Shown here one piece after another: positions 36,882 to 52,974 of a DNA stretch of 64,000 bases. The notes under the pieces are model-generated. The model was given only the letters and a program-made list of their open reading frames with translations, had not been told where the DNA came from and made no database searches. A program made the translations under genes and the position numbers. This stretch comes from Corynespora cassiicola (taxonomy: Eukaryota > Ascomycota > Dothideomycetes > Pleosporales > Corynesporascaceae), in assembly GCA_022059125.1 (NCBI GenBank), contig JAEUWY010000023.1, forward strand, positions 1,240,001 through 1,304,000, read 5' to 3'. Position 1 is the stretch's first letter; each line of letters begins with the position of its first letter.

Positions 36882-36890
36882 TATATTTTA
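36882..36890 (+). promoter_or_regulatory. TATA-like element upstream of tRNA-Leu
   Basis: TATATTTTA about 30-37 bases before the mature tRNA 5' end. Upstream TATA elements near -30 support pol III initiation at tRNA genes in several fungi, notably fission yeast. Confidence 0.5.
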
Positions 36891-36918: not shown

Positions 36919-37051
36919 GACGCGATGGCCGAGTGGTTAAGGCGGTGGTCTTAAGAACCACTTCACTTTGTGATCATGGGTTCGAGTATGTGTGATGTCA
37001 GTCTGTGCTTCTTCGATCTTTACTAATTTGCTCTAGACCCCATTCGCGTCA
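36919..37051 (+). tRNA. tRNA-Leu(UAA) with a spliceosomal-like intron in the T-loop
   Basis: Acceptor stem 36919-36925 pairs perfectly (7/7) with 37044-37050, with discriminator A at 37051, as for Leu. D-arm GCC/GGC at 36928-36930 and 36941-36943. Anticodon stem GTGGT/ACCAC (36945-36949, 36957-36961) closes loop CTTAAGA with anticodon TAA at 36952-36954. The long variable arm TCAC-TTT-GTGA (36963-36973) marks a class II tRNA. T-stem ATGGG (36976-36980) pairs perfectly with CCCAT (37039-37043). These arms fold into a tRNA only if 36986-37036 is removed, which leaves a standard T-loop TTCGAAC. There is no intron at the canonical 37/38 site. A box TGGCCGAGTGG (36926-36936) is perfect; the B box is split by the insert. 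Oligo-T terminators begin nine bases after the 3' end. Confidence 0.88.
36986..37036 (+). other. Putative spliceosomal intron within tRNA-Leu T-loop (between nt 58 and 59)
   Basis: 51 bases, beginning GTATGT, with TACTAAT at 37021-37027 as a branch-like site 10 bases from the end, and ending CTCTAG. Length, donor, branch and acceptor match the protein-gene introns in this window (mostly 45-60 bases). Exact excision restores the T-arm. Confidence 0.75.
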
Positions 37052-37059
37052 ACATCAGG

Positions 37060-37083
37060 TTTTATTTTTATTTTTTTATTTTT
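37060..37083 (+). terminator. Pol III oligo-T terminator cluster
   Basis: T4 (37060-37063), T5 (37065-37069) and T7 (37071-37077) runs immediately downstream of the tRNA 3' end. These are strong pol III stop signals in fungi. Confidence 0.75.
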
Positions 37084-50976: not shown

Positions 50977-52974
50977 ATGTCCAAACGCCATATCCAAGAC
51001 CATGCCTCGGCAGAGAGCCTCGAGCCGCACTGGGGCTACGCTGACCGCGTGGTCCCGTGCACCAACGACGCTGGATCCTGTGCCTATCTCGACGAGGTGT
51101 ACGGCTCCCACGATCGGTCCATGGTGTACATGGGCATCCTGTGGCTGACCATCGCTGCCATCCTGATCTTCTGGGCTGTCGGCCGCCAGTCCCTGCGCTC
51201 AAGGACGCCTGGAGTCGCCCTCCCCGTGCGGGGGGAACAACAGTCAAGGAGCCTCAGCGCCACCCAGAGGCTGCGGATAGCCGTCCCGGCCGCTCTGCGA
51301 AGACATCTGCTCCCGGATGCCCCCAGGATCCTCTTCGGCCGCACCACGCGGTTGCAGGTGGCGGTTCTCGCTGCCCTCGCGGCCTACCTGATCATCTGGT
51401 CCTTTGTCGGCATCGGATACAACAAGTGGGTGACTCCCGTCAAGAACTCGCCCGGCGTATACAACACGCGCACCAGTCTTGGCCCCTGGAGCGACCGTGT
51501 CGGAATCATTGCCTATGCTCTCACGCCCTTGTCTATTGCGCTTGCGTCGCGCGAGAGCATCCTCTCCCTCATCACCGGCCTGCCATATCAATCCTTCAAC
51601 TTCCTGCACCGATGGCTCGGCTACATCATCTTCGCGCAATCTGCCCTTCATACCATTGGGTGGTGCGTGATTGAGCTCCGCCTCTACCAACCGCAGCCCT
51701 CCGTCGGCATTGAGTGGATCAAGCAGCTGTACATGATCTGGGGCGTCATTGCCATGTTCTTCCTCACTGCTCTCGTCATTCTCTCCACCCCCTGGGGAAT
51801 CCGCATGACGGGCTACGAGTTCTTCCGCAAGTTCCACTACGTCGTCGCCTGCCTGTACATTGGCGCCTGTTGGGGTCACTGGGCCCAGCTGTACTGCTAC
51901 CTGCTCCCCAGCTTGATCATGTGGGGTCTGGACAGGGCCATTCGTCTCGTTCGTACGGCGCTACTGCACTACAACTATCTCCCAGACGGAAACATGGGCT
52001 TCCGCTGCGCGACAGCTGACATCAGCTTCTTCCCCGATCCCGATCCCCAGGGCGGTGACATTGTCCGCCTGGACTTTGATCACCCGCACGATGCGTGGAA
52101 CATTGGACAGCACTTCTACCTGTGTTTCCCCGAGTCGAGCGTCTGGCAGTCGCATCCTTTCACGCCGCTCTCGCTCCCCATCGAGGGTGCCCGCGCCCAG
52201 CGACACAGCTACATCTTCCGCGCGAAGAAGGGAGAGACGCGTCGAATTGCCGAGCTCTCTGCCCGCCGCTGCACTCGCAATTCGGACAAGTTGGCCCCGG
52301 GGACTGACGCCAAGTTGAGCGTCGTCCTCAATGGCCCGTACGGCGAGAACATCACCTCGGACCTTCCGCGTGACGCCAACATCCTCTGCATCGCCGGTGG
52401 CACTGGCGTGACCTATGTCCTCCCGCTGCTCATGGATCTTGCCTCGCGCCCGCAAAACAGCGACCGTCGCTTCAGCCTCGTCTGGGTGGTCCGTCACAAG
52501 CAAGATATGGAGTGGGTAGCGCCCGAGCTGGCAGCCCTGCGCTCCTCTGCGCGAGCCATGGGGCTCGGTATCCGCGTGTTCGTGACCCGTGGCGGCGAGG
52601 AGGCCGCCCTACCGCCCGCCTGCAACTGCCAGCCTTCGGCTTCGGACAAGGAGAAGGAGGCGAACCAGGAGATTGCGCCCGTGGCCAACTCTTCCTCGTC
52701 TTCGGATACGTCTTCGCAGCTGTCCCTCCACGGCGTTTCAAAGTCGGAGCTGAACATGGATCATGTTCACAACCGCCCTCACCTCCAGGAAATCGTTACC
52801 ACTTTTGTCAACGAGAACGTGAGCGGGCCAACGCACGTTGTGGCCTCGGGCCCAGGCGGCATGATCAGCGAGCTCCGGGGTGTTGTCGCCGGTGTGAATG
52901 ATGGCGGCAAGGTATGGAGGGGCGAAACGAGATGGGACGTGAAGCTCGTCTGTGACGACCGACTGGAGTGGTAG
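50977..52974 (+). CDS. Ferric/cupric reductase (FRE/NOX superfamily)
   Basis: Single exon, 665 aa. Plasma-membrane flavocytochrome that reduces Fe(III) or Cu(II) outside the cell using cytosolic NADPH. An N-terminal anchor helix (ILWLTIAAILIFWAV) is followed by the ferric-reductase membrane domain. The two heme-ligand pairs are FLHRWLGYIIFAQSALHTIGW and KFHYVVACLYIGACWGHW. FAD binding is marked by HPFTPLSLP, and NADPH binding by GGTGVTYVLPLL and the C-terminal VASGPGGMISELR. An acidic/Ser-rich insert (about residues 550-600) interrupts the NAD domain, as in many fungal Fre proteins. No signal peptide is obvious. The divergent Ctr neighbour implies that Cu(II) reduction to Cu(I) for uptake is the likely job. 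Confidence 0.93.
   Translation: MSKRHIQDHASAESLEPHWGYADRVVPCTNDAGSCAYLDEVYGSHDRSMVYMGILWLTIAAILIFWAVGRQSLRSRTPGVALPVRGEQQSRSLSATQRLRIAVPAALRRHLLPDAPRILFGRTTRLQVAVLAALAAYLIIWSFVGIGYNKWVTPVKNSPGVYNTRTSLGPWSDRVGIIAYALTPLSIALASRESILSLITGLPYQSFNFLHRWLGYIIFAQSALHTIGWCVIELRLYQPQPSVGIEWIKQLYMIWGVIAMFFLTALVILSTPWGIRMTGYEFFRKFHYVVACLYIGACWGHWAQLYCYLLPSLIMWGLDRAIRLVRTALLHYNYLPDGNMGFRCATADISFFPDPDPQGGDIVRLDFDHPHDAWNIGQHFYLCFPESSVWQSHPFTPLSLPIEGARAQRHSYIFRAKKGETRRIAELSARRCTRNSDKLAPGTDAKLSVVLNGPYGENITSDLPRDANILCIAGGTGVTYVLPLLMDLASRPQNSDRRFSLVWVVRHKQDMEWVAPELAALRSSARAMGLGIRVFVTRGGEEAALPPACNCQPSASDKEKEANQEIAPVANSSSSSDTSSQLSLHGVSKSELNMDHVHNRPHLQEIVTTFVNENVSGPTHVVASGPGGMISELRGVVAGVNDGGKVWRGETRWDVKLVCDDRLEW

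Follow-up and report, generated by a model that had tools for sequence, protein, structure and literature searches.

How can a functional tRNA arise from a gene whose T-loop is split by an insert with the signals of an mRNA intron? This question is raised by the tRNA-Leu(UAA) gene of Corynespora cassiicola, which lies in a window of 64,000 nucleotides (the whole stretch of DNA analysed, C23:1240001-1304000); the genome searched comprises 44.35 Mb in 23 contigs. A sequence-only reading of the window had placed an insert with GTATGT, TACTAAT and TAG between positions 58 and 59 of this tRNA, and both direct reading and recomputation bear it out (Table 1). It had also held that the stems are perfect and that exact removal from GT to AG leaves the loop TTCGAAC. 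Recomputation of the spliced gene gives this same T-loop, together with 7 of 7 acceptor pairs, 5 of 5 T-stem pairs and A as N73, and by eye the anticodon stem has 5 of 5 pairs and the variable arm 4. As it stands in the DNA, the gene is not called as a tRNA by ARAGORN, either in bacterial mode or with introns of up to 300 nt allowed (locus L001), and has no Rfam match at the gathering score; with the GT-AG segment removed, ARAGORN calls a standard tRNA-Leu(UAA). Folded as one strand, the window gene is unremarkable (z -1.43).

We consider the locus to be, with a probability of about 0.9, a functional nuclear tRNA gene whose Pol III precursor carries a U2-type spliceosomal intron in the T-loop. 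In the proposed mechanism, Pol III would transcribe the gene into a pre-tRNA containing the intron, and the spliceosome would recognise GTATGT, the TACTAAT branch site and TAG, excise 51 nt and join A58 to A59, yielding the T-loop TTCGAAC. Pol III transcription, splicing and the dependence of the mature tRNA on splicing are steps that we infer from sequence features.

Table 1. Coordinates of the tRNA-Leu(UAA) gene parts and of a protein gene in the window, and of the interrupted tRNA genes in the genome
Feature	Position	Strand	Remark
tRNA-Leu(UAA) exon 1	36919..36985	+	anticodon UAA, no 37/38 intron; holds acceptor 5' strand, D-arm, anticodon arm, variable arm and T-stem 5' strand (36976-36980)
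TTCGA of tRNA-Leu(UAA)	36981-36985	+	positions 54-58, end of exon 1
Leu(UAA) intron, spliceosomal type	36986..37036	+	51 nt, between positions 58 and 59
5' splice site of Leu(UAA) intron	36986..36991	+	GTATGT
Branch site of Leu(UAA) intron	37021..37027	+	TACTAAT
Predicted branch A of Leu(UAA) intron	37026	+	10 nt before intron end
3' splice site of Leu(UAA) intron	37034..37036	+	TAG (intron ends CTCTAG)
tRNA-Leu(UAA) exon 2	37037..37051	+	positions 59-60 (AC), then T-stem 3' strand
T-stem 3' strand of tRNA-Leu(UAA)	37039-37043	+	CCCAT
Acceptor 3' strand of tRNA-Leu(UAA)	within exon 2	+	TCGCGTC, then discriminator A73
T-rich Pol III-type terminator	37060..37083	+	runs of 4, 5, 7 and 5 T
TATA-like element	36882..36886	+	37 nt upstream of tRNA-Leu(UAA) gene
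Ferric reductase gene	50977-52974		identical to Corynespora cassiicola Philippines protein
Leu(UAA)	C23:1276919		insert at 58/59
Ser(GCU)	C15:1069644		insert at 58/59
Ser(GCU)	C2:3079927		insert at 58/59
Ser(GCU)	C15:1041684		insert at 58/59
Ile(UAU)	C2:720418		insert at 58/59
Gly(CCC)	C2:4358232		insert at 58/59
Lys(CUU)	C20:2011409		insert at 53/54
Lys(CUU)	C6:1323831		insert at 53/54
Lys(CUU)	C6:1323101		insert at 53/54
Lys(CUU)	C6:1322950		insert at 53/54
Lys(CUU)	C4:2991878		insert at 53/54
Lys(CUU)	C23:792452		insert at 53/54
His(GUG)	C2:4563975		insert at 53/54
His(GUG)	C5:281672		insert at 53/54
His(GUG)	C5:1330731		insert at 53/54
Ile(AAU)	C6:2579005		insert at 53/54
Ile(AAU)	C20:2027067		insert at 53/54
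Ile(AAU)	C20:1494058		insert at 53/54

The window gene has counterparts elsewhere in the genome, where we found 17 more tRNA genes interrupted in the T-arm, making 18 in 7 anticodon families (Table 1). ARAGORN calls none of the 18 in unspliced form and all of them after GT-AG removal. In the spliced genes, the acceptor stem has 7 of 7 pairs in 17 cases (6 of 7 in Gly(CCC)) and the T-stem 5 of 5 in 17 (4 of 5 in one Ile(AAU)), and by eye there is a U-U at 31-39 in Ile(UAU) and a mismatch at 27-43 in His. The Ile(UAU) gene is labelled as such in one ARAGORN run and as Glu(CUC) in two others; in our reading its anticodon is UAU, against the Glu(CUC) label. In 11 of the 18 genes an anticodon-loop intron is present as a second intron (six Lys, two Ile(AAU), Gly and Ile(UAU) according to ARAGORN, and the third Ile(AAU) by eye), and the precursors of these genes would therefore need two unrelated splicing systems.

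How the genes were found determines what their shared signals can tell. A genome search with Rfam RF00005 returned 58 matches, with 63 of 1206 candidates scored, and was incomplete: Phe, Glu, Pro and Leu(CAA) genes are present in the genome yet unlisted. ARAGORN reads 51 of the 58 loci directly. The 7 on which it fails are three Lys(CUU) genes, three Ser(GCU) genes and that of the window; each of them carries a T-arm GT-AG insert with full splice signals, which played no part in the finding of this subset. Pattern searches extended the list. Among the 20 places matched by RGTTCGAGTANGY there are 6 interrupted tRNA genes, and this pattern contributed Ile(UAU) and Gly(CCC); Gly(CCC) is also found at one of the D-arm pattern places (L074). 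Among the 15 matched by YAGTTCGANYCCC there are 11, and this pattern contributed genes for Lys(CUU), His(GUG) and Ile(AAU). Neither pattern is enriched, with 39 and 31 places for the respective reversed patterns, and a third, YAGTTCAANYCCC, matches 16 places, one of which is a known Ile(AAU) gene and 15 of which hold no tRNA by eye. Eight genes (two Lys, three His, two Ile(AAU) and Ile(UAU)) came from patterns that contain one splice site, either YAG ahead of TTCGA or GTANGY after it, and in these eight that insert end was therefore pre-selected; the branch site and the other insert end are absent from the first two patterns. Ile(UAU) and Gly were first picked out by a scan that required YTRAY and YAG. 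A query with exon 1, which is blind to inserts, gave 27 places, comprising 5 other Ser genes and 22 places of seven families. Among the 22, 18 are interrupted with full signals (including the third interrupted Ile(AAU) gene, found by this route), 3 have an intact T-arm (L024, the first copy in L121, and L122) and 1 is decayed.

In the fetched loci ARAGORN directly reads 83 distinct tRNA sequences, so that interrupted genes make up 18 of the 101 seen in a census that is incomplete and whose 83 include one mitochondrial-like sequence and several with wrong ARAGORN labels. The idea that Phe, Glu, Pro and Gln genes are interrupted as well was rejected, as ARAGORN reads all 25 fetched loci directly, several under wrong labels. 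A Tyr gene was not found with one pattern; Thr(UGU), Ser(CGA) and Ala(CGC) are not among the tRNA genes seen, only Thr having been queried; and a search of viral contigs with a Ser(GCU) exon stretch found nothing. Three further loci deserve separate mention. ARAGORN calls Ala(AGC) at L014 (C4:58429-58500), where G3-T70 is seen by eye, yet over 65 nt the body has 86% identity to a yeast tRNA-Pro. L015 (C18:126671) is a mitochondrial-like tRNA-Met gene, about 100 nt or less from TTAGGG repeats, and is either a telomeric mitochondrial insert or an assembly join. L108 (C23 around 2259997) is a U6 snRNA gene with no intron by eye, and GGTTCGAGTATGT, a possible external B box, lies a few dozen bases downstream of it.

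The inserts have the make-up of U2-type introns, running from GT to AG with an extended donor, a typical branch distance and a sensible product. The donor is GTANG in 18 of 18 (GTACG in 6, GTAAG in 5, GTAGG in 4 and GTATG in 3), all end in YAG, and each has a CTRAY branch site (CTAAC in 16, CTAAT and CTGAC in 1 each) whose branch A lies 10-14 nt from the end; one His(GUG) intron (HisGUG_3) has another AG 3 nt after the branch A. Dinucleotide-shuffled interiors would be expected to yield 1.2 CTRAY and 0.3 CTAAC sites at 8-16 nt from the end, against the 18 and 16 observed. The inserts are 48-59 nt long, with one of 97. For comparison we used six mRNA introns of two protein genes of the window, placed by comparison with proteins. 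Five of these measure 45-63 nt and one 184; the donor is GTRNGT in all but one, where it is GTACAC; five end in CAG and one in AAG; and they have a CTAAN branch site with the branch A 9-13 nt from the end. The window also encodes a P450 with 505 of 508 residues as in the Corynespora cassiicola Philippines protein, which together with the ferric reductase (Table 1) assigns the DNA to this species or a very close relative. The window has 215 segments of the form GTRNG..YTRAY..YAG, and in-silico excision gave a tRNA across the junction for 1 of them; in overlapping loci it did so for 28 of 898. Five shuffled sets, with 1221-1314 such segments each, and the reversed sequence, with 1373, gave none. 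An earlier locus set gave 19 matches among 1056 candidates, all in nine of the 18 genes, and a laxer scan covered 7036 candidates, from which the rows around the intact tRNAs L015, L034, L042, L048 and L062 were dropped.

Two classes of intron can be set aside at this point. A canonical TSEN intron sits at 37/38 and is ruled out by the positions 53/54 and 58/59. A group I or II self-splicing intron was rejected, the catalytic core of such introns being usually well over 100 nt and the inserts 48-97 nt, with no Rfam match at the gathering score in the window. A subtler possibility is that these are ectopic tRNA introns, cut by TSEN through a BHB or a relaxed form of it, with the GT-AG ends coincidental. 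The 11 genes with anticodon-loop introns speak in its favour, as do the archaeal introns at 53/54 and nearby, the D- and T-arm introns of nucleomorphs and the similar ones of C. merolae described in the available part of PMC4090602. However, none of the 18 genes has a strict BHB, at the junction or with shifts of -2 to 2 (at most 3 of 4 central pairs form), and TSEN cutting is not known to depend on GTANG, CTRAY or YAG, which all 18 contain, so that we regard this account as very unlikely. Removal by the spliceosome, as the sequence-only reading had proposed, is on the other hand strongly supported at the level of sequence by the 18 full sets of signals and their likeness to the six mRNA introns, and is further backed by the lack of a strict BHB and of an uninterrupted Leu(UAA) in the searches made.

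Comparison of paralogues points in the same direction. Exons are 92-100% identical between paralogues versus 40-88% for intron interiors, with 19 of 24 pairs at or below 70%. The exons of the three Ser(GCU) genes are identical and their intron interiors 40-57% so; the corresponding figures are 92-97% and 50-88% for Lys(CUU), 100% and 66-88% for His(GUG), and 93-97% and 41-71% for Ile(AAU), the exon identities of Lys and Ile counting the anticodon-loop intron in. Quick change of the interior beside fixed signals and exons is the pattern that splicing would demand. It also bears on whether the interrupted genes are merely disrupted pseudogenes, with unseen intact copies serving translation. Short T-arm insertions in one of many synonymous genes are mostly deemed pseudogenes in the part of PMC4090602 at hand, the census is incomplete, and there is one decayed Lys(CUU)-like copy, L123 (C1:1672224-1672301), which is apparently a pseudogene. 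Decay of the L123 type is nonetheless absent from the 18 genes, and the Ser exons are identical though their introns diverge. Moreover, every copy found by the exon-1 query is interrupted for Leu(UAA) (1 of 1), Ser(GCU) (3 of 3), His(GUG) (3 of 3) and Ile(UAU) (1 of 1), which leaves the pseudogene account highly improbable.

The sequence-only reading had argued that the absence of any uninterrupted Leu(UAA) copy would make splicing essential. Such a copy appeared neither with the exon-1 query nor in 30 of 46 D-arm-pattern places (at most 3 mismatches; read with ARAGORN, six by eye). A diverged intact copy may be missed, because the census is incomplete and the DNA search strict: six tRNAs of other species matched only 1 place. 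Intact T-arm copies were found for Lys(CUU) (one) and Ile(AAU) (two), and for Gly(CCC) there is another gene, L028. TTA, AGY, CAY and ATA codons are present in genes of the window. We think it likely that the spliceosome is an obligate tRNA-maturation enzyme in this fungal lineage, required in the T-loop for the tRNAs reading UUA, AGY, CAY and probably AUA, and that many pre-tRNAs are spliced by two unrelated machines, TSEN acting in the anticodon loop and the spliceosome at 53/54 or 58/59; AUA is given as probable because of the Glu(CUC) label that ARAGORN attaches to that gene.

The origin of the introns is a separate matter. The sequence-only reading had suggested, as an alternative, that the insert entered the gene as a mobile introner-like element, and copies of such an element landing in tRNA genes might account for the use of the same two insertion points in unrelated isotypes and for a 13-nt stretch with 12 matches between the introns of Ile(UAU) and Ile(AAU). 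This suggestion found no support. Of the 18 genes, that of the window was searched whole, insert included, under strict conditions (E at most 0.001), and its only match in the genome is to itself; the similarity of introns between isotypes is close to that of shuffled sequences (2 of 129 pairs reach p<=0.01, with 1.3 expected); and no repeats beyond one G flank the junctions. Because the window gene is unique in that search and cross-isotype introns are near chance, an introner burst is unsupported, and we hold it to be unlikely, albeit less so than the other alternatives considered; it bears on the origin of the introns rather than on their removal.

Transcription of these genes by Pol III is suggested by their surroundings and by the position of the introns. 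With the cloverleaf, the Pol III-type terminator completes the picture of a functional tRNA gene: runs of at least 4 T lie within 60 nt downstream of 17 of the 18 genes, and the eighteenth precedes a tandem tRNA copy. A TATA-like element occurs within 60 nt upstream of 12. The splice signals are those of Pol II transcripts, as would be expected if RNA polymerase II transcribed these genes and the insert were an mRNA-like intron within some longer RNA. These T-runs, the lack of TTTT in the introns and the preserved tRNA body all run counter to this account, which we consider highly improbable. TTTT is absent from 18 of 18 introns (product of shuffle probabilities 0.026), which is weak evidence for Pol III because of that probability and because the six mRNA introns lack TTTT too; avoidance of T-runs as proof of Pol III transcription was accordingly rejected as too weak. 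Two arrangements of neighbouring genes stand out. L121 (C20:1493850-1494300) holds two Ile(AAU) genes in tandem, separated by 30 nt; the T-arm is intact in the first and has a 55-nt intron in the second, which makes them a natural test pair. Two interrupted Lys(CUU) genes, L057 and L115 (C6:1322950-1323236), lie 17 nt apart with no T-run between them and likely share one dicistronic precursor.

Transcription by Pol III would also fit the placement of the introns, which always border the TTCRA core on one side or the other, at 53/54 or 58/59. This core, central to the Pol III B box, is therefore never split. In the 53/54 genes, the G of the intron's AG replaces G53 in the DNA, and the B box is thus whole. 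In the six 58/59 genes, GTTCGA is kept and the next C of the B box consensus is lost to the insert, which counts against our preferred explanation.

The splicing of tRNAs and that of mRNAs are treated as separate worlds with separate enzymes. If spliceosomal removal is confirmed, short Pol III transcripts can be obligate substrates of the spliceosome, no more than about 15 to 20 nt of mature tRNA following the intron. Pol III transcripts would then have to enter the mRNA splicing pathway, and translation capacity would be tied to spliceosome activity. Since ARAGORN sees none of the 18 unspliced genes, it would also become clear why some tRNA families are absent from annotations. How introns are gained in a structured RNA becomes directly testable in related Pleosporales. 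Collectively, these results suggest that the mRNA-splicing machine is needed for several tRNAs that this plant-pathogenic fungus seems unable to spare.

Among the open-licence matches listed, none reports a spliceosomal intron in a nuclear tRNA gene, although a report in the subscription literature is possible; the available parts of PMC4035089, PMC11782384, PMC13148404 and PMC6726248 hold no such tRNA case, and the terms are absent from that of PMC5709842. Eukaryotic tRNA genes with insertions in the T-arm are mostly regarded as pseudogenes, ectopic introns being described in nucleomorphs and C. merolae (PMC4090602, in part), and BHB cases are treated in the accessible portion of PMC3978253. 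The ectopic introns of archaea, nucleomorphs and C. merolae resemble those described here in their T-arm positions, including 53/54 in archaea, but they are 3-24 nt long in Guillardia or else bounded by a BHB, and the portions of PMC4090602 and PMC3978253 at hand mention no GT-branch-AG signals. Some nucleomorph tRNA genes have two or three introns each (PMC4090602, same portion). Eukaryotic tRNA genes are stated to be limited to one (PMC8450103, excerpt). An mRNA-type intron reported in nuclear 18S rDNA is likewise a spliceosomal-type intron in a structural RNA gene, the host being an rRNA and not a tRNA.

Canonical 37/38 TSEN introns also interrupt tRNA genes, and 11 of the 18 genes have an anticodon-loop intron too, but the T-arm introns differ from them in position, in signals and, presumably, in machinery. 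With the U2-type introns of protein-coding genes they share the GTRNG donor, the CTAAC-type branch site 9-14 nt before the end and a length of about 50 nt, while differing in having a tRNA gene as host, Pol III-type signals and a junction in the T-loop. The U6 snRNA genes of Schizosaccharomyces pombe and Rhodosporidium reportedly have mRNA-type introns, so that there, as proposed here, a spliceosomal intron would sit in a Pol III noncoding RNA. U6 is itself a part of the spliceosome, whereas the hosts in C. cassiicola are tRNAs, in 7 families and 18 genes.
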